Virus record (IMG/VR): IMGVR_UViG_3300024273_001986
Coordinates: 1-37,426 of that record
DNA length: 37,426 nucleotides
Reading direction: 5' to 3' (one strand)
From: a virus
How positions within the stretch are numbered: position 1 is the first letter of the stretch; every line of letters starts with the position of its first letter. Made by a program: the position numbers and the translations under genes. Of this stretch, positions 318-37,426 are shown one piece after another. A model generated the notes under the pieces. That model was not told the origin of the DNA, made no database searches, and saw nothing but the letters and a program-made list of their open reading frames with translations.

Positions 318-1184
318 ATGTGGAAAGTGAAGGATTACTTAGTAAATTCATTTTTGAAAATTAGACTATGGTGCTATCTAGCATTTAATTCAAGAAATTT
401 TAAAGACGTTAATAATCTTGCGGAAAAAGATGGTTGGAAACTTACTTTTCAGGATGAGTTTGATGAGCAAAAATTAGACAAGAAAAAATGGAGAACTGAC
501 CACCACTTTGGACTAAGATACAATCCAGAAAGTATAATTAAAGAAAATAAATCTCCGAAACAATATTGCGGAGATAACATGTTTGAATTTACAAATTCTA
601 CAATAAAGCAAAAGTCTGAGAAAAATCCTATAAAAATAAATTACACAGACTGTAATGGTGTTGACTATGGTTCATACACTATTCCCTACAGAGTTGGGCA
701 TCTAGATAGTTCTAAATCTTTTATTCAAAAATATGGTTATTTTGAAATTAGAAGCAAAATGACATCACAACCAGGGCATTGGCCTGCATTTTGGATGGCG
801 TCCACAGATTCTCACTTTCCAGAAATTGATATATATGAAGCTTATACTAGTAAGTCGATTAAAGGTTTGGTTAGTTTTGAATCAAATTTTCATTGGGGCA
901 CTTCTGAAAATAAAGCGATGAAAGTAATGGGTCATAATGTTGAAAATATTTCAAAAAACTTTCATATATATGCTGTAGAATGGAATGAGAAAGGCTTTAA
1001 GGTGTACTACGACAATATGTTAATTAGAGTTTTTAGCAACCCAGAAGCTATCAAAGAATTTAAGCACCCCATGCACATTATTGTGAGCAATCAAATAGAT
1101 ATGAGTGAGGGCGGAAAGTTTGATGAAGCTATATTTCCAACATATCACGAAATAGATTACGTTAGAGCTTATGCAAAAAGTTAG
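318..1184 (+). CDS. Glycoside hydrolase family 16 (beta-glucanase/laminarinase/agarase-type)
   Basis: A 288-residue protein with a GH16 core. GWKLTFQDEF near residues 39-48 is the usual start of the fold. YGYFEIRSKM near 139-148 and HWPAFWMAS near 154-162 are typical GH16 strands. The catalytic motif is EIDIYE at residues 169-174, with E169 as presumed nucleophile, D171 as helper and E174 as acid/base. GH16 enzymes hydrolyse beta-1,3 or beta-1,4 bonds in glucans and galactans; the exact substrate cannot be read from sequence. There is no clear signal peptide; residues 1-30 are basic and hydrophobic. In a phage it could be a capsule or EPS depolymerase, or act on algal polysaccharide carried by the host. 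It overlaps the convergent HNH gene by 4 nt. Confidence 0.9.
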   Translation: MWKVKDYLVNSFLKIRLWCYLAFNSRNFKDVNNLAEKDGWKLTFQDEFDEQKLDKKKWRTDHHFGLRYNPESIIKENKSPKQYCGDNMFEFTNSTIKQKSEKNPIKINYTDCNGVDYGSYTIPYRVGHLDSSKSFIQKYGYFEIRSKMTSQPGHWPAFWMASTDSHFPEIDIYEAYTSKSIKGLVSFESNFHWGTSENKAMKVMGHNVENISKNFHIYAVEWNEKGFKVYYDNMLIRVFSNPEAIKEFKHPMHIIVSNQIDMSEGGKFDEAIFPTYHEIDYVRAYAKS

Positions 1185-1675
1185 ACCTTAAGTCCAACAT
1201 ACACATTCCATGATTTATGGATTTCTTTAAATTTCTGAACATAATATATGTAAGAAGGTCTAAAAGGTCTATGTCTCATTTGCATATTAGCCTCTTCTGG
1301 CGTTTTGTTGTCTTTAGTCTCATTACATGACTTGCAACACGTTGCTAAGTTTTGCCAAGTATTATTGCCACCTCTAGAGCTAGGCATTACATGGTCTATT
1401 GTTAAATGTTTTTCGCTATTACAATATAAACACTTAAAATCATCTCTTCTAAATATATTTTGTCTACATAAATATACTTTTCTAAATGGTACTGACACAT
1501 ACTTTAGAAGCCTTATGACTGTAGGTCTTTTAAATCTTTTTTTATCAGTAACAATTGGCTCTTTTGAAATGTGTTCTAGTATTTCAGCCTTTCCTTTAAA
1601 TACCAATTTAAACCCTCTAGATAATGTTGTTACATTTATTGGTTGGTATGTACTGTTTAATACTAATACTTGCAT
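1181..1675 (-). CDS. HNH endonuclease
   Basis: A 164-residue HNH-family nuclease. The zinc pair KCLYC (C82, C85) is followed by LTIDHVMPSSRGG (catalytic H95), the N-rich segment NNTWQNL and a second zinc pair CKSC (about C114, C117) leading into NETK. The N-terminal part (VLNSTYQPINVTTLSRGFKL) matches the N-terminal extension of free-standing HNH proteins common in bacteria and their phages. The C-terminus after residue 125 is basic and aromatic. It may be a homing-type or packaging-related nuclease; the context does not decide. Its stop overlaps the GH16 stop on the other strand (TTAG). Confidence 0.88.
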   Translation of the reverse strand: MQVLVLNSTYQPINVTTLSRGFKLVFKGKAEILEHISKEPIVTDKKRFKRPTVIRLLKYVSVPFRKVYLCRQNIFRRDDFKCLYCNSEKHLTIDHVMPSSRGGNNTWQNLATCCKSCNETKDNKTPEEANMQMRHRPFRPSYIYYVQKFKEIHKSWNVYVGLKV

Positions 1676-3864: not shown

Positions 3865-4267
3865 GTTATTTCAGTGTCCTACTACTCATACAGACATTAG
3901 CTAACATGTCCAAGGGCTTGTGTTTATCACTGTCTGGCTTCACCAGCTTAGGTCCCATGAGATTTTATAGAGTAAATTTGGACCGTACAACCTCTATAAA
4001 CCCGCTGTATCAGGTTTAATAACATGCAAGCAGTGTCTAAGAAGTGACTATTAAACTCTCCTTATTAAGGTTGAAGGTGACAACTGCTTGCTTAGTCGCG
4101 ATTTCAAGATTCGAACTTGACGGAGGGATATCTCCCAAAAAATGCTCAAAAGTATCTTGACATCATCACCGAGGTAATAAATTCAAAGAACAATTTGTTA
4201 AAATCTTAGTCATCCAAAAATGGATGTGCGATAGCCACTACGTGCAAGTGTTTTAACTTTGGCTATC
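3838..4267 (-). ncRNA. Candidate large structured RNA beside tRNAs (GOLLD/ROOL-like in context; unverified)
   Basis: About 430 nt directly 3' of the tRNA-Met/Ile2, with many pairings and no convincing gene. Helices: 4230-4237/4260-4267 (GATAGCCA/TGGCTATC); 4211-4216/4221-4226 (CATCCA/TGGATG); 4142-4149/4157-4163; 4104-4120, a T-arm-like hairpin TCAAG-TTCGAAT-CTTGA on the minus strand; 4027-4034/4083-4090 (CAAGCAGT/ACTGCTTG); 3964-3972/3992-4000 (9 bp); 3893-3897/3906-3910; and the terminator stem. GGTCC 3951-3955 can pair with GGACC 3980-3984, which interleaves with the 9-bp stem and makes a possible pseudoknot. G+C is raised relative to the surrounding AT-rich genes. Phages are known to carry large ornate RNAs (GOLLD, ROOL) next to tRNA genes, and GOLLD contains T-loops. 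Assignment to either class is an inference from context, not a match. Confidence 0.5.
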
Positions 4268-4341
4268 TGGGCCCCACAGGACTCGAACCTGTAACCTACT
4301 GATTATGAGTCAGTTGCTCTAACCAGCTGAGCTAGAGGCCC
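4268..4341 (-). tRNA. tRNA with CAT anticodon (Met, or Ile2 if lysidine-modified)
   Basis: A complete 74-nt cloverleaf on the minus strand. The acceptor is GGGCCTC/GGGGCCC with one T-G pair, the D-arm is AGCTCAGCTGGTTAGAGC, the anticodon loop CTCATAA gives CAT, the T-arm is ACAGG-TTCGAGT-CCTGT and the discriminator is A. CCA is not encoded. Whether it is elongator Met or Ile2 cannot be settled by eye. It lies 9 nt from tRNA-Arg (6 nt if the encoded CCA is counted) and in the same direction. Confidence 0.93.
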
Positions 4342-4347
4342 TTTAAA

Positions 4348-4424
4348 TGGTGAACGGAGAAGGATTCGAACCTTCGACCTACGCATTAGAAGTGCGTGGC
4401 TCTATCCAACTGAGCTACCCGTCC
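4348..4424 (-). tRNA. tRNA-Arg (TCT), CCA apparently encoded
   Basis: A complete cloverleaf on the minus strand. The acceptor GGACGGG pairs with TCCGTTC (one G-T at each of two positions). The anticodon stem CGCAC/ atGCG-type arm holds loop CTTCTAA, anticodon TCT (Arg). The T-arm is GAAGG-TTCGAAT-CCTTC and the discriminator A is followed by CCA at 4350-4348. A TCT tRNA decodes AGA, the dominant Arg codon in AT-rich phage genes such as those here. Confidence 0.94.
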
Positions 4425-4463
4425 ATTTAAATTACTTTTCCAACATTTCAAAGAACCTTTTCT

Positions 4464-4505
4464 TATCTAACGACAAATATATAAAAATATTACATCAGAT
4501 AAAAA
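4464..4505 (-). promoter_or_regulatory. Candidate Bacteroidota-type promoter for the tRNA/ncRNA cluster
   Basis: On the minus strand, TATATTTG (4481-4474) fits the Bacteroidota minus-10 form TANNTTTG. A T-rich block (TTTT instead of the usual TTTG) lies 19 nt upstream. Transcription would begin near 4467, giving a leader of about 40 nt before tRNA-Arg. The match is to a known consensus; activity is inferred. Confidence 0.45.
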
Positions 4506-4517
4506 TATATTTATTTT

Positions 4518-4549
4518 AATTGTCAAATGGTTAAATAGTTAAATTGTTA
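4518..4549. repeat. Four-copy 8-bp tandem repeat abutting the DUF1566 stop codon
   Basis: Plus-strand units AATTGTCA, AATGGTTA, AATAGTTA, AATTGTTA at 4518-4525, 4526-4533, 4534-4541 and 4542-4549. The last unit contains the stop codon (TAA on minus, 4549-4547) of the candidate DGR target gene. A 15-bp stretch at 4514-4528 (TTTTAATTGTCAAAT) recurs at 4858-4872, at the other end of that gene. Confidence 0.75.
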
Positions 4550-4870
4550 AGAAGCCCTGACCGAACGAACGAGGCCGTTGGCGCCCTTAGTGAGGTTGGC
4601 CTGGTAACCATCGAGGAAATCCTGGAACCACGCAAGGTTGAAATCGTTCTCCGTAGAACTCCAATAGTAGTTAATAGCAAAACCGCCAATTTCTTGCTTG
4701 TTTTCATAAAACATATTCAACTCATCTTTTGTCGGAAGTCTCCATCCTGGTCCTAATTTTTTGCAAGCAATTTTTGCTTCATGCCAATTCATCATTCCTA
4801 AATTATCAGAAACTTCCAATCCGTTGATTGATTTTCTACCTTCTAGTAATATGTGTTTTTTAATTGTCAA
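4547..4870 (-). CDS. DUF1566/C-type-lectin-fold protein; probable diversity-generating retroelement (DGR) target
   Basis: About 107 residues if it starts at TTG 4870, just after the lipoprotein stop; the frame is open back to ATG 4969 but that would overlap the lipoprotein by 95 nt. The domain reads NGLEVSDNLGMMNWHEA, then GPGWRLPTKDELN, then YYWSSTEN, AWFQDFLDG and VRSVRAS, the usual order in Lcl/DUF1566 domains and DGR receptor proteins. The last 35 codons look like a DGR variable region: the sites that hold Asn in a typical template are here D, F, L, Y, A, T, G, all with NNC or NNT codons, as A-to-N change of AAC/AAT would give. These C-ending codons and high G+C contrast with the AT-rich upstream part. 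Neither a reverse transcriptase nor a template repeat is in the window. It is last in a minus-strand run with the lipoprotein and helicase. Confidence 0.8.
   Translation of the reverse strand: MTIKKHILLEGRKSINGLEVSDNLGMMNWHEAKIACKKLGPGWRLPTKDELNMFYENKQEIGGFAINYYWSSTENDFNLAWFQDFLDGYQANLTKGANGLVRSVRAS
4560..4670 (-). other. Putative DGR variable region (VR)
   Basis: The 3' segment of the DUF1566 gene, from the codons for WSSTEN to VRSVRAS. It is GC-rich, and about 17 codons end in C or T at positions where DGR templates carry AAC or AAT. Invariant framework codons (TGG, CAG, GGT, AAG, GTT CGT) contain few or unchanged adenines. Boundaries are approximate because the template is not available. 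Confidence 0.65.
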
Positions 4871-4874
4871 ATTA

Positions 4875-5147
4875 CTACTTTGTTGCACGAGAAGCGAAGG
4901 CGCCAACCCCCAGTAAAAAACCAAAATCATACCAAGCTCCATTGTTGTTATAAGCATACACCGCCACATTATCCATAAACAAACTTCCTACAAAAGAAAA
5001 TATTGATATTAGTCCATGCCACAAACCTCCAAAAAATCCATAAGAAGATTCATTAACACAATCGATTGCGTTAGAACTTACGTCTGCACATCCTGTAATT
5101 AATAAACTCAAAATGAGAATGTATAAAATAGTGTTTAGTTTTTTCAT
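4875..5147 (-). CDS. Small lipoprotein with membrane segments
   Basis: A 90-residue protein with a lipoprotein signal: MKKL, hydrophobic core, then LLITGC with C20 as the lipidated Cys. The mature part GFFGGLWHGLISIFSFVGSLF and the later NNNGAWYDFGFLLGVG follow a pattern I know from short bacterial membrane or lipoproteins of unknown function (glycine-rich helix, D-x-x, then W-Y-x-F-G-F). It could coat the host envelope during infection, as in superinfection exclusion, or anchor a surface display; both are inference. It begins 4 nt after the helicase gene ends and stops 4 nt before the likely start of the DUF1566 gene. Confidence 0.78.
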   Translation of the reverse strand: MKKLNTILYILILSLLITGCADVSSNAIDCVNESSYGFFGGLWHGLISIFSFVGSLFMDNVAVYAYNNNGAWYDFGFLLGVGAFASRATK

Positions 5148-13759: not shown

Positions 13760-14380
13760 ATGAGAAGATTTATATCAGAAATATTAGAAACAGAACTTAT
13801 GGAAGTTATGATTCTTAAAGAGCATAAAGAAGATGTTAGTGATGGCTTGCGTTACCACATAGACAAAGGTATAAGTGTTCACAACTCTATATATAGATAT
13901 ACTTCAGAAAATCATATAAGCTTAATAAATGAAGTTAAGTCATTATATGCAAAGAACTCTATTGTACTTTGCGAAAATGATGAAAGTATAATCAAAAGTG
14001 ATGCTGGTATGCTGGGTGATTTTGAAGGCGATTTAGTTCTTTTAGATTTACCATTTGAAGAAAGAGAGCCTGGCTTAGATGAGGCTACTTATAAGGGCAA
14101 AGAAGTAGAGTTAAACAAACCCAAAAGGGGAGGGAGTAAGAAATTTTACGTGTTCGTAAAAAATTCCGACACTGGTAAGGTGATAAAGGTTTCATTCGGC
14201 GCAAAAGATGGGGGGGGTAAATTGGCAGTTAAACTCAAAGACCCTGATGCTAGAAAAAGGTTTGCAGATAGACACAACTGTGAAAGCAAGAATGATAAAA
14301 CAAAACCAGGATACTGGTCATGTAGGCTTCCTAGATATGCAAAAATGTTAGGATTGAGCGGACAGGGAAAGTGGTGGTAG
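13760..14380 (+). CDS. Hypothetical protein with RHNC/GYWSCRLPRYAK module
   Basis: 206 residues. The N-terminal tag is MRRFISEILETELMEVM. Residues 100-190 include YKGKEVELNKPKRGGSKKF, a beta-rich stretch (YVFVKNSDTGKVIKVSFG) and KRFADRHNCES...GYWSCRLPRYAKMLGL, a short Cys/Arg module I recall in many marine T4-like phage proteins, usually next to head or structural genes. Ends GQGKWW. The gene contains a run of eight G at 14210-14217 (Gly codons), rare in this AT-rich genome. A CTATTTAT motif is at 13729-13736. Confidence 0.75.
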   Translation: MRRFISEILETELMEVMILKEHKEDVSDGLRYHIDKGISVHNSIYRYTSENHISLINEVKSLYAKNSIVLCENDESIIKSDAGMLGDFEGDLVLLDLPFEEREPGLDEATYKGKEVELNKPKRGGSKKFYVFVKNSDTGKVIKVSFGAKDGGGKLAVKLKDPDARKRFADRHNCESKNDKTKPGYWSCRLPRYAKMLGLSGQGKWW

Positions 14381-14398
14381 ACAAGATTAATTGATGTG

Positions 14399-15541
14399 AT
14401 GGACGATATTAATAAAAACAAAAAACAAAATTTACCATTTAAAGAAAAGGTAGATGGAGATTTTGTTGTTAGAAAATTTTCTGACCTATTGAAAGAAGGT
14501 GAGCTTGTTTGGCATAGAGATATAGAGGATAGAATAATATTCCCCTTACACGAAAGTGATTGGAAAATACAAATAGACAACGAAATTCCACAACCTCTAA
14601 ATGTTGATAATCCTGTATTTATAAAGTCAGAACAATTTCACAGGCTAATAAAAGGAACTGGTGAATTAGAGGTTAAAGTTTATAAAAGCAAATTACCTAA
14701 TGATAAAACTGTTTTACAAAAAATAATATCAGAAACATTAGAATTGTTTCTAGAAAAAAGAGGTGCTGACTCTGAAACAAAAAAGGGAAGAAAGGTACCT
14801 GGGAAATATTTGACATCTAAATCTAAAAGCAAAAGGTCTCAAATGAAAAAGGAGATAGATAAATTTGCTAACAAAAAATCTTCTGACCCAAAAGCTTATA
14901 CTAAGCAATGGAAAGCTGACAAAGGTGAGTACACAGAAAAAAGTGACGCGACTTTAGCTTATAAAAAAATGTACGGAGAGACTTTTGAGGTTTTAAAAGA
15001 TAAAAAAAATAAATTATCTCAATCCTTTAAAAAGTTTAAAGAAATAGCATTAAGAGAAAAAAGAGAAACTATACAAGCGTTTAAAATATGCAAAAAAATA
15101 CTCGCGAAAAAAGATGTATCCAAAGAAGAGGTGCATTTTTTAAAAGAGCAATCTAAAGATTTAGCGAAAATAGTTGGAGTTATGGCTATGGGCTCAATTT
15201 CAATGGCTATACCAATTGCTCTAGAAGGCATTTTAAACAAAAAGTATGGCATATCAATAATGCCAAAGAGTCAAGAAGGTTTGAGTGAATCCAAAAGTAA
15301 CGACAAAGGGTTAAAGAAAAAGTCAAAAGATTCTAGCATACCTTATTATATATTAAAGCAAGTTTATAACAGGGGAATGGCTGCTTGGAGAACAGGTCAC
15401 AGACCTGGTGTTGCTCAAAATCAGTGGGCTATGGGAAGAGTTAATAGTTTTATAACAGGTTCGGGCGGTGCTAGAAAGGCAGATGCTGATTTGTGGTCTA
15501 AAGCCAAAAAGGCTAAAGCAAAGAAAAAAAGTAAGAAGTAA
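14399..15541 (+). CDS. Basic multi-module protein, putative head/virion associated
   Basis: 380 residues from ATG 14399; a GTG at 14396 is also possible. Residues 1-95 form a compact domain (WHRDIEDRIIFPLHESDWKI). A tag-like helix VLQKIISETLELFLEKRG is near 105-122. A Lys/Ser-rich segment, KKGRKVPGKYLTSKSKS, leads to a basic helical region ending YKKMYGETF. A hydrophobic stretch (IVGVMAMGSISMAIPIALEGIL, about 259-280) could insert in a membrane. The C-terminus VYNRGMAAWRTGH...QWAMGRVNSF...KADADLWSKA has a signature I know from marine phage and large-virus proteins of unknown function. Poly-basic tail. May be injected with DNA, a speculation. Starts 18 nt after the 13760 gene. Confidence 0.72.
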   Translation: MDDINKNKKQNLPFKEKVDGDFVVRKFSDLLKEGELVWHRDIEDRIIFPLHESDWKIQIDNEIPQPLNVDNPVFIKSEQFHRLIKGTGELEVKVYKSKLPNDKTVLQKIISETLELFLEKRGADSETKKGRKVPGKYLTSKSKSKRSQMKKEIDKFANKKSSDPKAYTKQWKADKGEYTEKSDATLAYKKMYGETFEVLKDKKNKLSQSFKKFKEIALREKRETIQAFKICKKILAKKDVSKEEVHFLKEQSKDLAKIVGVMAMGSISMAIPIALEGILNKKYGISIMPKSQEGLSESKSNDKGLKKKSKDSSIPYYILKQVYNRGMAAWRTGHRPGVAQNQWAMGRVNSFITGSGGARKADADLWSKAKKAKAKKKSKK

Positions 15542-15543
15542 TT

Positions 15544-16137
15544 ATGTTATCCGAGTCTTACATAAAAAGAAATAAAGAGTTAGCTGGTATTTTGGTACAA
15601 GAAAGTGCTGAAGACTTTTCTGCAAGCAACACTAGAGTCCCATTCAGTACAGACTTAATGACACAAGCGATACTTCAAGGTAGAGAGGTTGGGATACTAT
15701 ATAAAGGCGATGACATGATAGCTCAATCTGGTAAATATAGAGTTATATATCCTGTGGCAATGGGCATGTCTAAGGCGGGGAATCGTGTCATAAGAGCAGT
15801 ACACAAGGTGGGTCAGTCAGAATCAGAAGCTGGTAAAACGAGCGTCAGAAGTGCTGAGGCTAAAAACGTGTGGCGACTTTTTAAAGCTAGTAACATTAGG
15901 GGCATGTGGTTTACGGGTGACTTTTTTAATTTCAATCCTAAAAGCTATAACCCAAACGATAGGGGTATGAGTACTGTAGAGGTTAGTTTCAGTCTGACTA
16001 AGGCACAAAAGTTCCAACAAGAGTTCGTCACAAAACAGGAGGAAGCAAATGAGCTCAGGTCTAAAGTTAGAAGGTTTAAAGAAGCTGGGGCTCGTGATTT
16101 AGAGCAACCCTATAAAGACCCAGAAACTAGAATTTAA
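15544..16137 (+). CDS. WYL-like domain protein with N-terminal ESYIxRxKxLAG motif
   Basis: 197 residues. The N-terminus MLSESYIKRNKELAGILVQES matches those at 11882 and 12262. Residues 38-135 resemble a WYL-type ligand or nucleic-acid binding domain: AILQGREVGILYKG, GKYRVIYPVAMGMSKAGNRV, IRAVHKVG, VWRLFKASNIRGMWF. There is no HTH domain. The C-terminal 50 residues are a charged helix. WYL domains often regulate transcription, but here fusion to the shared tag suggests a virion or delivered protein. Moderately sure of WYL. The stop overlaps the Mre11-Rad50 gene by 4 nt. Confidence 0.68.
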   Translation: MLSESYIKRNKELAGILVQESAEDFSASNTRVPFSTDLMTQAILQGREVGILYKGDDMIAQSGKYRVIYPVAMGMSKAGNRVIRAVHKVGQSESEAGKTSVRSAEAKNVWRLFKASNIRGMWFTGDFFNFNPKSYNPNDRGMSTVEVSFSLTKAQKFQQEFVTKQEEANELRSKVRRFKEAGARDLEQPYKDPETRI

Positions 16138-19100
16138 GCAGAAACTTCTTTAGGAACACTTTTAGAAACAATATTATTTCTATTATTTACATCAAACACA
16201 GATATTCCTGCCATAGGGTTTTCTTTTATTTGTTCATCAGTTAAAGTTGACCTATTTTTAGTTACTTGAATTATGTTGTCAACAAAGTCTTTAATTTCAT
16301 TTTTATGAGTTATAATCCAAGTGTTTTTGTACTTACCTTTTAAGTAATAAAATACAGACTGCATAGCTATAGTTAAATCGTTATCTAGAGCACCAAACCC
16401 CTCATCTATAATGCACAGTGATGGCTTAGTTAATGAGCTTACAAAGTGAAGGGAGTCTCTTATTGCTACACTTCCTATGAATTTTTGTGCACCTGAAGCC
16501 ATAGTCATTGGTAAGGCATCTTTTTCAATGGAGTTAAAATAAAACAACTCCTTAATGTCACCATTCTTTTTTATAGTCATTTCCATCTTAAAGTCAACTA
16601 AGTTTTTCAAAATAGAATTTATTTTGTAATTAATTACAGGCAACTTTTGTCTTATTATTCTTGCAGGAATTCCGTCTCTATGTACTGCCTGTAAGTATAT
16701 AGCATATTTACTGAAAGAAGACTCTGCTTTTTTTATAGTTCCTATCTTTTCTTCTAAATTTTCTTTATTGTTCTGGGATAGTTTTAAGTCTGATTTAATT
16801 GAAGTCAATTTATCATTAAGTTGATTTATGATTAATCTTAAAGATTTTTTCTCATCTTCATTTAGCTTGATTTCTAAATTTATATTTTCATTAATTTTCA
16901 ATGAACTCTTATTAGATTCTAATATAGAAATATCTTTCTCTATTTTTTCAATCTTTGTTTTTAAATTTAGTATTTCACTTTTTGCTGTATTTAATGAAGT
17001 GTTTTTAGATTCCACTAAACTATTGTGTTTATTTATTTCAGAAATCTTTTGAGATAACTCTAAGACACTTTTTAAATCATCTATTTTAACTTTATTTTCT
17101 TTTAAAGAATTTTTTAAAGAACCAATTTTGTTTTCTTGTTTTCCAAAATGTATATTATGATTACTTATATCTTTAGACTTTTTTATTTCAGACTTTTTAT
17201 CTGTTATAAACTTTATGCCTCTCTCAATTTTCTGTGTACAATCATTTTGCAAATCCACATCAGCTTTCTGTTCAACATTTCCGCATGTAGGACACTTCTT
17301 CCCCTTAGAAACCTCTAATTTATCATTAAGCTTTATTAGGGCAGACTCTGCTTTCAAAATGCCTTCTTTTATAGGCTCTACATCTATTTCTTTCTGTAAA
17401 GGATTGTTTTTTACCCATTCATTAAGGGATTTGAATTCATTTTTTTCAGTTTCAAACTTTTTTCTACAAAGCTTAAGATTATCATTAATTATATCAACAC
17501 TTGATGTAGATTCTTTAGGGACTTCTTTTTTAAAATTAGAAGACACCCAATCAATTAACTCAGATTCTGTTGACGTATTAGTAGATAGTTGTATTTTCAG
17601 TTTTTCAATAGCACTTTTTGCAGAATTAATATCTTTATAGTTTGTGGGCTCTACTTTTATTAAAGTTTTCGTCAATTCTAATATTTTAGAATCCTGAACC
17701 TCCACCAACTTATCAGTATCTAACTTTTCTTGCTTGTACTTTTTTAATAATTTATTATTTTCAACTATAAACACTTCTTCTTTAGCAATGGATTCTTTAT
17801 GCTCTTTTGAGCTGCCTAGATATTTTTGTTTTGACTTTATGTCGTTGAATATCTTTTTTGCATAATCATACCTATCTCTAAAAACTTCAAGACCTAGGTA
17901 TTTGTTTATCAAATCATTTTTAGGTTGCTGACTCATATCTAAAAAATTTCCCTCACCACCTTGGGCTTGTAATACTATTTTTGTAAAATCATCAAACTTT
18001 CCTATAGACTCTATAATAATATTATTTCTCTCAGTTTTTTCAGTAGCAGATTTGTCAGAGTCTATTGATTTCCAAACCTTTTTCCCCTCAGCATTTTCTT
18101 TTAACACCTTATATTCAACTCCATAAGAAACATCGGGGGTACCATCTTTTTTAGTCCTAACCTTTACAGTTCTCTCTATATAAAACTTCTGAGAATCAAT
18201 AGTTAGATAAACACGACCACCAGCCTTATCGCTTTCTGTATACATGTTTGTTAATCTATGAGCCTCTCCTCCTCCCAATATTTTTCTATAAGCAATCCAA
18301 ACAAGGGCTCTAATTAAATTAGTTTTTCCTTTAAAATTTTTTCCAAAAATACCAGTAACCCCAGACATTTCATTAAAATTAAAAACAGTTTTTTGTTCTG
18401 GGAAGCTGAAAAGATTCCAAACTTCAATTCCATCTAGGAACCATTTTTTACCCTTTTCTGAAGAGTGATTTAGTTCTTTATCTATTTTTCTAGAAAGTTC
18501 TAAAACCTCTTCTTCATTATCATATTCACTATTTTCCACAAAATCTTTCAATAAAGACTCAAACTCATCTACATTAGTATAGTCTTTTTCTTCCTCAATT
18601 GATATTCCGTCTATCTCTTCCTGCTTACTTACTTGTTTAAAGTTAACGTTTATAACTTCACAGCCATACTTACTCTTTATTAACTTTTCTATCTGCTTCT
18701 CCTTCTCTACTGAATAATCTTCTTCAAAAGCCTCCCAAGTAACTGAAACTTTTGTTTTTTTAGGATTATTAGAAAGAGTCAAGCTGTCCACCCTTTCTTC
18801 AAAAAGCTCTCCTTTGGATATGTGTAAGCTAGAAAAGCCATAATCATTAGGTATAAACTTTCTTGAGAAAGTCTTCTTTTTTAAATCCCAAACAATGTAA
18901 CCCTTGTCAATAGTCTCTCCATAATCCTGTTGTATTAAACTTCCAGGGTATGCTATATTTTCTGTTGCTGATATTTTTAAGGAAAATGATTGATGCTCAT
19001 GTATATCTCCCAACATTACAATGTCAAAATTATTAAATGTGCTGAGCTTCATCATATATTCGCTATCGTGTAGCTCATAGCCATTATTGCCCCTTGAACC

Positions 19101-19634
19101 ATATACTGGGCCGTGGTACATTGCGATATATGTTTTATTTTTATCTTTTTTATTTAAAGTTAAAATCTCATTATCTAAACAAGAATATATACCATAAACT
19201 ATATCGTTATTTATTTCATAGAAACCGCTGTGAAGAAAGAAGAATATACCATGTCCACTCCCTTTGTGTTTTGGCAATTTTTCAACACCTTTTTCAACAA
19301 TATACCCATCACTAATTAATTTAACTATAGGCTCAATAGAATTTCCTTGGTCTAAAGATTGTAGATTTAAATCATGATTACCTAATATTAAGTCAACTGG
19401 CGCTATTTGAGAGAGTTCCTTCAGAAACCATCCAGCCAACTCTAAGGCATTAGGAGATAGATTTATTTTTATATGAAATAAATCTCCTGTTATTGCAATT
19501 CTTTTTAAATTTTGAGATTTTAAATCATCTATAGTTCTTTGAAAAACAATTTTATACTCCTTATGTCTACTGCCATACCTAATGTGAACATCAGATATAT
19601 GCGCTATTGAATCATTTATTTTAACTGTGCTCAT
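16134..19634 (-). CDS. Fused Mre11-Rad50 (SbcD-SbcC) nuclease/ATPase, equivalent of T4 gp47+gp46
   Basis: 1166 residues in one frame. Residues 1-380 are an Mre11/SbcD phosphoesterase: HISDVH 12-17, GDLFH 50-54, GNHD 85-88, YHGP 173-176, GDIHEH 209-214, the metal-binding set of the family. Residues 405-1166 are Rad50/SbcC: Walker A GIFGKNFKGKTNL about 428-440, two long coiled-coil arms, a zinc hook KKCPTCGN (C781, C784), signature ASGAQKF about 1046-1052 (usually LSGGE), Walker B LCIIDEGFGALD 1073-1084 and switch His at about 1110. The complex processes DNA ends for recombination-dependent replication. T4 has two genes; here one chain carries both. It is translated after the primase with a 14-nt overlap. 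Confidence 0.95.
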   Translation of the reverse strand: MSTVKINDSIAHISDVHIRYGSRHKEYKIVFQRTIDDLKSQNLKRIAITGDLFHIKINLSPNALELAGWFLKELSQIAPVDLILGNHDLNLQSLDQGNSIEPIVKLISDGYIVEKGVEKLPKHKGSGHGIFFFLHSGFYEINNDIVYGIYSCLDNEILTLNKKDKNKTYIAMYHGPVYGSRGNNGYELHDSEYMMKLSTFNNFDIVMLGDIHEHQSFSLKISATENIAYPGSLIQQDYGETIDKGYIVWDLKKKTFSRKFIPNDYGFSSLHISKGELFEERVDSLTLSNNPKKTKVSVTWEAFEEDYSVEKEKQIEKLIKSKYGCEVINVNFKQVSKQEEIDGISIEEEKDYTNVDEFESLLKDFVENSEYDNEEEVLELSRKIDKELNHSSEKGKKWFLDGIEVWNLFSFPEQKTVFNFNEMSGVTGIFGKNFKGKTNLIRALVWIAYRKILGGGEAHRLTNMYTESDKAGGRVYLTIDSQKFYIERTVKVRTKKDGTPDVSYGVEYKVLKENAEGKKVWKSIDSDKSATEKTERNNIIIESIGKFDDFTKIVLQAQGGEGNFLDMSQQPKNDLINKYLGLEVFRDRYDYAKKIFNDIKSKQKYLGSSKEHKESIAKEEVFIVENNKLLKKYKQEKLDTDKLVEVQDSKILELTKTLIKVEPTNYKDINSAKSAIEKLKIQLSTNTSTESELIDWVSSNFKKEVPKESTSSVDIINDNLKLCRKKFETEKNEFKSLNEWVKNNPLQKEIDVEPIKEGILKAESALIKLNDKLEVSKGKKCPTCGNVEQKADVDLQNDCTQKIERGIKFITDKKSEIKKSKDISNHNIHFGKQENKIGSLKNSLKENKVKIDDLKSVLELSQKISEINKHNSLVESKNTSLNTAKSEILNLKTKIEKIEKDISILESNKSSLKINENINLEIKLNEDEKKSLRLIINQLNDKLTSIKSDLKLSQNNKENLEEKIGTIKKAESSFSKYAIYLQAVHRDGIPARIIRQKLPVINYKINSILKNLVDFKMEMTIKKNGDIKELFYFNSIEKDALPMTMASGAQKFIGSVAIRDSLHFVSSLTKPSLCIIDEGFGALDNDLTIAMQSVFYYLKGKYKNTWIITHKNEIKDFVDNIIQVTKNRSTLTDEQIKENPMAGISVFDVNNRNNIVSKSVPKEVSA

Positions 19635-35830: not shown

Positions 35831-37426
35831 ATGGATTTATTTTTATTATTTTCAGGTTCTACTACAGGTGGAACTAGGATTGTTTTAGACAAACAGTCTG
35901 ACCTTAAATTGACTGGTGCTCAAATTTTAGAACCAGTTGGAATTGTTCAAAAAGACGTTAAAGGAGTTGACGAGAATTTCGAGCAAGCTGCTTACGAACT
36001 TGGTCTTGAACAAGCAAGAGCTGAAGCTGCTGAAGCTGAATTAACTGCTGCTATATCTTCTGAAGAAGCTGCAAGAATTGCTGATGATGCTGCATTAACT
36101 GCTGCTTTAACTGCTGAAGAGAATGCAAGAATTGCTGCTGACGCTGCATTAACTGCTGCTGTTGAACAAGAAGCTGCAAATAGAGTTGCTGCTGATACGC
36201 AAAATGCTGAAAACCTTAGTCTTGAAGAGACTAGAGCAAAAGCTGCTGAAGCTGCATTAACTGCTGCTGTTGAACAAGAAGCTGCAAATAGAGTTGCTGC
36301 TGATGCTGCTCACGATGTAGAGATTTCTGAAATCATAACTGAAGCTGCTGCTGAAAAAGCTGCTTCTGCTGCTGCAAGAGCTGCTGAAACTGCAAGAGCA
36401 CAAGCTGCTGAAGCTGCAAATGCTTTAGCTATATCTAATGAAGAGTCTGCAAGAATTGCTGCTGACGCTGGTATACAGTCTGCACTAGACGCACAAGAGT
36501 CTAAGCAAGAAAGCGAAAGAGCTGCTATGGATGTTGCTTATAAAGCTGCTGACACTGCACTTCAAGGTGACATTGATACTGAGAAAGGTAGAATTGATGC
36601 AATTTTAAATGCTGCTACTGCTGATGCTGATACATTTGCTGAAATCGTTACTTTAATCAATTCTGTTGACACTGAAAACGACCAGGCATTTGCTTCTTAC
36701 GTTCTTTCAAATGATGCTGCTGTTAAAGCTGTTCAAGATGACGTAGACGCTAATCAAGAAGCTACTGAAGCTGCTGACAAAGTCTTAACTGACGGATTAG
36801 CTGCACAAGTTGCTAAACAAGTTGCTGATGAAGCTGCTATGGATTCTGCTTATAAAGCTGCTGACGCTGCTACTAATGCTGCACTTGCTCAAGAGCTTTT
36901 AGATAGAGCTGCTGGTGATGTTGCTGTTCAAGCTAATTTAGATACTGAAATCGCTGCAAGAGCTGCTGCTGATATCGTTCAATCTAGTAACTTAACTGCT
37001 GAACAAGCAAGAGCTGAAGCTGCTGAACAAGCAAATGCTGCTGCAATTGCTGCTGAAGAAGCTAGAGCTTTAGTTGCTGAAGGTGCAATCACTTCAAACG
37101 TTTCTGACTTAGCTGCTAAGCAAATCGCTGACGAGGCTGCTATGGATTCTGCTTATAAAGCTGCTGACGCTGCTGCAAAAGTTGCTTCTGACGCTGCTGA
37201 TGCTGCCATTCAAGCTGACGTAGATTCTAATGAAGCTACCGCCTTAGCTGGAAGAGTTGCTATTCAAGGTGATGTAGATGCTAATCAAGCTGCTGCTGAA
37301 GCTGCTGACAAAGTAAATGCTGATGCAATTGCTGCACAAGCTGCTAAGCAAATCGCTGATGAAGCTGCTATGGACGCTGCTTACAAAGCTGCTGACACTG
37401 CACTTGATGGTAAGATTTCTACTGAA
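35831..37426 (+). CDS. Ala-rich coiled-coil fibre protein, 3' end outside window
   Basis: The frame is open from ATG 35831 to the last base (532 codons, no stop). After a short N-terminus (MDLFLLFSGSTTGG, then KLTGAQILEPVG) the protein becomes a long heptad-like repeat rich in A, E, D, R and T: EQARAEAAEAELTAA, SSEEAARIADDAALTAAL, EQEAANRVAAD, AAMDSAYKAADAA, with a non-repeat insert IDAILNAATADADTFAEIVTLINSV. Such repeats are known in phage tail fibres and virion proteins; long alpha-helical coiled-coil trimers are expected. Codon use shifts to GCT and GAA, giving higher G+C than neighbouring genes, and the DNA carries many imperfect direct repeats. Role: probably a tail or whisker-type fibre. 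Confidence 0.85.
   Translation, partial: MDLFLLFSGSTTGGTRIVLDKQSDLKLTGAQILEPVGIVQKDVKGVDENFEQAAYELGLEQARAEAAEAELTAAISSEEAARIADDAALTAALTAEENARIAADAALTAAVEQEAANRVAADTQNAENLSLEETRAKAAEAALTAAVEQEAANRVAADAAHDVEISEIITEAAAEKAASAAARAAETARAQAAEAANALAISNEESARIAADAGIQSALDAQESKQESERAAMDVAYKAADTALQGDIDTEKGRIDAILNAATADADTFAEIVTLINSVDTENDQAFASYVLSNDAAVKAVQDDVDANQEATEAADKVLTDGLAAQVAKQVADEAAMDSAYKAADAATNAALAQELLDRAAGDVAVQANLDTEIAARAAADIVQSSNLTAEQARAEAAEQANAAAIAAEEARALVAEGAITSNVSDLAAKQIADEAAMDSAYKAADAAAKVASDAADAAIQADVDSNEATALAGRVAIQGDVDANQAAAEAADKVNADAIAAQAAKQIADEAAMDAAYKAADTALDGKISTE

Follow-up and report, generated by a model that had tools for sequence, protein, structure and literature searches.

Diversity-generating retroelements (DGRs) are usually treated as cassettes that act in cis. 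The type system is that of Bordetella phage BPP-1 with its target Mtd. It combines adenine-specific variation of a variable repeat (VR), a template located beside a reverse transcriptase (RT) and a target with lectin fold. Here, we analyse a gene for which the same three features are found. It lies on the IMG/VR virus record IMGVR_UViG_3300024273_001986, a stretch of 37,426 nucleotides (37.4 kb; in the following, the window) that is a fragment of its phage genome, and it encodes a small stand-alone protein of the Lcl_C/DUF1566 type. As in DGRs of the BPP-1 type, the 3' ends of VR and template differ (here GGGCTT versus GGGGTT). In contrast to these DGRs, the phage holds the recipient gene only, as a single copy or in tandem, and it is bacterial genomes that contain template and RT.

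Action of a DGR in trans has been described within a single genome (PMC10907252). In that organism, Thiohalocapsa PB-PSB1, VRs agree at every non-adenine site with a template that lies at another locus; the same relation is found here, but between a phage and a bacterium instead of within one genome. Bacteroidota phages with distal second VRs (PMC8008677, PMC12629997) likewise contain a lectin-type VR remote from the RT, but they encode their own RT. VRs or targets without an adjacent RT are also known from partial DGRs of DUSEL4 Nanoarchaeota (PMC4372165) and from epsilon crAss-like phages lacking RT (PMC11054128), where they were read as fossils, as remote targets within the same genome or as decayed cassettes. 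The present case differs in that several phage lineages share one template known from bacteria only. RT-centred surveys miss targets distant from the RT (PMC8144416). Searches of the open-licence literature turned up no case in which a host DGR diversifies targets of a phage; this does not prove that none exists.

We favour, with slightly better than even confidence, the reading that a DGR encoded by Flavobacteriales hosts may diversify lectin targets of phages in trans. In its favour, a template inferred from the phage genes was then found beside bacterial RTs and was not found in the phage contigs. Behind it we rank, in this order, an unseen cassette of the phage itself, captured genes that are frozen, and the DGR of another mobile element.

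Phage copies of the target gene differ at template adenines

The helicase gene neighbouring the target gene led to four syntenic phage contigs with protein identities of 92–95%. At the same place, between a lipoprotein gene and two tRNA genes, the window contains one copy of the target gene, contig L002 five tandem copies, L004 three, and L003 and L005 none. The tandem unit is 344 bp long. Throughout the copies, the framework is constant and the same codons vary. An inferred template was written from the phage copies alone by placing A at the variable bases. The copies of L002 and L004 fit this template at 92–100% of the non-A positions and 45–75% of the A positions; the corresponding values for the window copy are 89% and 48%.

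The key comparison is between L002 copy 2 and L004 copy 1. Their VRs differ at 24 positions, and all 24 are template adenines (p~2e-12). The 206 bp upstream, the other VR bases and the following spacer are all identical. On sequence grounds, such a pattern marks mutagenic retrohoming in the phage genes, unless the VR was exchanged with that of an unseen donor. Assembly error would hardly yield 24 differences confined to template adenines, even though G001, G003 and G006 stem from one metagenome.

In the window, the VR stands out in composition. Its GC content is 52%, compared with 31% for the gene body and 32% for the whole window, which places it at the 99.97th percentile among 138-bp windows. 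Of its 46 codons, 36 end in C or T and 19 in C; in the other genes of the window, C occupies 10% of third positions (binomial P 5e-8 for the excess). A GC-rich 3' segment with codons mostly of the type NNC or NNT, as noticed earlier from the letters alone, is thus borne out. Chance composition as the source of this pattern is ruled out by the existence of a real template and by the 24 of 24 differences at adenines. Compared with the nearest bacterial template, L097, the window VR is changed at 24 of 46 adenines and at two of 65 other bases (p=1e-9). The VR thus differs from its template essentially at adenines alone and fits the template family at 63 of 65 non-adenine positions; it also has the end GTTCGTTCGGTCAGGG in common with L097. 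Six phage VRs, representing five distinct sequences, show no mismatch at the 65 non-A positions. Five others (L036 copy 2, both copies of L037, L063 and L064) have 12–18 mismatches at 64–65 such positions, and are only probable members of the family.

With near certainty, the gene is a genuine DGR target whose 3' region is diversified, as the earlier note had proposed. This status does not depend on finding an RT in the full genome, because the adenine-only differences between phage copies establish it independently.

Template and RT in Flavobacteriales genomes

We ran an adenine-open pattern, nearly the same as the viral one, on 84,980 prokaryote species and obtained 74 stretches, most of them in aquatic Bacteroidota. 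Roughly a dozen of these are templates in which nearly all adenines are kept, and seven have a DGR RT nearby. The template inferred from the phage copies recurs almost letter for letter beside RTs of Flavobacteriales DGRs. Template L142 deviates from it only by AAA for AAT after GCGTGG, by AAT for TAT near the end and by the end GGGGTTTT. In the three host loci examined (L142, L097 and L143), the DGR adjoins secreted Lcl-domain targets. None of the three has an open reading frame (ORF) of at least 150 aa between template and RT, and no dedicated search for Avd was made. The isolate Psychroserpens burtonensis DSM 12212 possesses template and RT of the family of the window VR, which opens the question to bench testing.

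The distribution of this DGR is patchy. A search of 399 sampled genomes from the order to which L097 belongs recovered the three already-known templates alone and not the exact template of the window; 222 genomes of the family of Aquirufa contained no template. Such a distribution, together with the many VR-bearing bacteria that have no RT, would fit a DGR that belongs to a prophage, plasmid or integrative element, enters hosts and phages alike and works in trans in either. We regard this origin as very improbable, since the three examined host loci have chromosomal neighbours and no template occurs in phage records or viral contigs. Plasmids contained no template beyond one relative with 71% identity.

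No RT or template found in phage contigs with the VR

The adenine-open pattern detected further VRs in viral contigs of lineages B (G005–G007), C (G010/G011) and D (G009/G014) and in two more contigs. VR nucleotides are common to phage lineages whose remaining genomes differ. The window itself contains neither an RT nor a template copy, as the earlier note had stated, and the sister contigs also contain no template copy. By profile search, RT is absent from all 12 phage contigs that carry a VR (549 kb from several unrelated lineages) and from their VR-free sisters, with a model that scores the family RTs at E=8e-20 or better. Direct tblastn of the family RTs against the phage contigs gave a best E of 0.4 or worse. 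In 2.9 million viral contigs, two patterns yielded zero template matches and VRs in ten stretches; this comparison with bacteria is weak alone, given about 12 templates per some 85 bacterial matches and hence about 1–2 expected in the viral set. Forty viral contigs encode related RTs, but a template of the window-VR family occurs in none of them, and GenBank phages have only distant DUF1566 homologues and no template.

The most direct case is G010, a complete 117-kb phage whose ends overlap by 179 bp and whose junction is spanned by G011 from another sample. It encodes terminase, major head protein, rIIA/B and ribonucleotide reductase, and its VR sits in a 270-aa protein. G010 has no RT, and the pattern scan of all viral contigs found no template in it. 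In the lineage of the window, RT and template are likewise missing across about 116 kb, the union of the syntenic contigs. The suggestion that both must be elsewhere, or the target an orphan, is thereby sharpened: the near-copy with adenines is located beside RTs of aquatic Flavobacteriales.

An ordinary phage DGR, with RT and template elsewhere in the genome of the window phage and the VR gene as a distal target, is an unlikely alternative. There are published examples of distal VRs in phages with an RT (PMC8008677, PMC12629997), and the lineage of the window is known from fragments. On the other hand, no VR-bearing contig of any of the several lineages contains an RT, no template was matched among the viral contigs that yielded VRs, and the complete phage G010 has neither.

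Several searches were unproductive. No matches came from querying viral contigs with a single target protein or from the first VR-constrained pattern. The first template pattern found 18 loci, none with a repeat of the window family, because the codon after TGG had been set to AAY, whereas it is AAA in the real template. The 299-kb contig L038 was set aside, as it has only a weak Lcl_C match (22.7 bits).

Elements at the 3' end of the variable repeats

The VR of the window is followed by heptamer-like repeats (ATTTAWC). At least one copy is present after 59 of 71 bacterial VRs and after none of 11 templates, compared with about 4% of random positions. For VRs of phage families A and B, the count is eight of nine. 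We consider these repeats a putative cis element of the recipient side, as judged from their distribution. Since families A and B share the heptamers of host VRs and the templates have none, these two families appear to possess what belongs to the recipient side in the host system and not what belongs to the template side.

VR and template also differ in their ends. GGGCTT(C/T)T in the VR stands against GGGGTTTT in the templates L142, L106 and L097, which in sequence corresponds to a putative initiation of mutagenic homing (IMH) element of the VR that differs from the IMH* of the template. In another template clade (L115 and L110), the template ends in GGGCTTTT, the same as its VRs. For BPP-1, a hairpin downstream of the VR is known. 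Such a downstream hairpin is clearly not universal in the family of the window VR.

Proposed action of the host DGR in trans

In the mechanism we propose, a Flavobacteriales host most likely supplies template and RT, which it would use to diversify its own secreted Lcl-domain proteins. Reverse transcription of template RNA would introduce errors at adenines, and the resulting cDNA would replace the VR by mutagenic retrohoming, so that the C-terminal ligand-binding face of the lectin is rewritten. The phage would contribute nothing but the recipient gene, which close relatives have in tandem arrays, and this gene would be diversified in trans during infection. Three steps are what we infer: the window phage infects a host with such a DGR, phage DNA undergoes retrohoming, and the lectin has a variable ligand, for instance a host surface, a rival phage or a defence component. 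As small, presumably binding proteins encoded next to a lipoprotein gene and present in up to five versions per phage, the lectins could serve in adsorption, exclusion of rivals or counter-defence. The broader proposal, that several unrelated phage lineages have lectin genes (tandem arrays in one of them) hypermutated in trans by the DGRs of their hosts and encode none themselves, is more tentative, and we place it just short of even.

Several observations weigh against action of a host DGR in trans. Eleven bacterial genomes contain a VR and had not been selected for a template; all 11 lack an RT of the template family, and they include the isolates L130, L117, L127, L082 and L147 (Aquirufa, Polaribacter, Lacinutrix, Psychroserpens and BAL38). 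Orphan VRs are thus widespread even in bacteria, and a part of the phage VRs may have been captured and then frozen. The RT-less bacterial VRs deserve separate study. The lineage of the window is not closed. The VR of G010 has 8 of 65 non-A mismatches to the nearest known template, and it is identical in G011, so that diversification is not evident from the sequences of lineage C. Finally, by a simple rule of a stem of four GC pairs, a GC hairpin follows none of 16 phage VRs compared with 30 of 74 bacterial VRs.

Alternatively, the phages would have acquired already diversified VR genes from bacteria or from other phages, with variants then spreading through recombination alone and phage DNA undergoing no retrohoming. 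The RT-less bacterial VRs, the missing hairpin and the VR shared by G010 and G011 are consistent with such frozen orphans, and so is a VR that is identical in two phage families (L004 and L036) from one sample, which is either recombination or an assembly chimera. Nevertheless, we judge frozen orphans to be improbable, somewhat more so than an unseen phage cassette. L002 copy 2 and L004 copy 1 differ at template adenines alone in genes that are otherwise identical. In addition, at A sites no phage VR resembles a bacterial VR or template by more than 73%, so no donor VR is seen.

If phages use the host DGR in trans, targeted hypermutation would cross genome boundaries as a resource, either shared or stolen. 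Diversification of the phage would depend on the infected host, and RT-less VRs would form a class that can be found with templates from bacterial genomes.

Target gene and its surroundings

The coordinates of the features are collected in Table 1. The target protein matches Pfam PF07603 Lcl_C with E=5e-9 and carries the VR at its C-terminus. A C-type-lectin fold is predicted with good confidence: the AlphaFold model has a pLDDT of 87, and its best PDB match is the C-terminal domain of Legionella Lcl (8q4e; TM 0.79 on the query). TTG at 4870, directly past the lipoprotein stop, is the probable start of the gene. An ATG at 4969 was rejected as start, as it would overlap the lipoprotein gene in another frame.

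Table 1. Features of the target locus in the window
Feature	Coordinates	Strand	Basis
DGR target gene; 107-aa stand-alone C-type-lectin (Lcl_C/DUF1566) protein	4547..4870	(-)	Pfam, AlphaFold, copy-number comparison
VR, homologous to Flavobacteriales DGR template repeat	4550..4687 (last ~138 bp)	(-)	comparison with template L097, GC
Stop codon and heptamer-like repeats (AATTTAAC TATTTAAC CATTTGAC) after VR	4522..4549	(-)	also after bacterial VRs
Direct repeat TTTGACAATTAAAA, downstream copy flanking target gene	4514..4527	(-)	single copy at L005 empty site
Direct repeat TTTGACAATTAAAA, upstream copy, contains TTG start codon	4858..4871	(-)	sequence, empty-site comparison
Upstream small lipoprotein gene (phrog_30702)	4875..5147	(-)	PHROG E=1e-26

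The adjoining lipoprotein gene, whose presence had been noted before, shows 58% identity with genes from Cellulophaga phages and is probably co-transcribed with the target gene. In the window, TTTGACAATTAAAA is found on either side of the target gene, and the empty site of L005 has it once. Copies could therefore come and go by recombination between the repeats.

The tRNA region next to the target gene also varies among the contigs. In L002, the tRNA-Met(CAT) gene at 14136-14560 (equivalent to window 4268-4424) is split by a group I intron at 14247-14483 (Rfam Intron_gpI, 80.8 bits), followed by an endonuclease-like ORF at 14556-15437 with a weak NUMOD3 motif. Unlike in L002, the tRNA-Met of the window is uninterrupted. 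Window 4138-4208 (+) contains KNAQKYLDIITEVINSKNNLLKS followed by a stop, a remnant of an endonuclease-like ORF that is fused to an apparent truncated tRNA; this ORF is intact in L004 at 4340-5023(-).

Elsewhere in the window, a phage-encoded glycosyl hydrolase family 16 protein (318-1184, (+); Pfam E=4e-19) adjoins an HNH endonuclease gene at 1181-1675(-). A single 1166-aa protein at 16134-19634 (-) has SbcC-like and metallophosphoesterase (SbcD-like) PHROG matches, as if the subunits were fused. The open-ended protein at 35831-37426 (+), with alanine-rich repeats (SEEAARIADDAALTAAL and following) and no Pfam match, is probably a long fibre.
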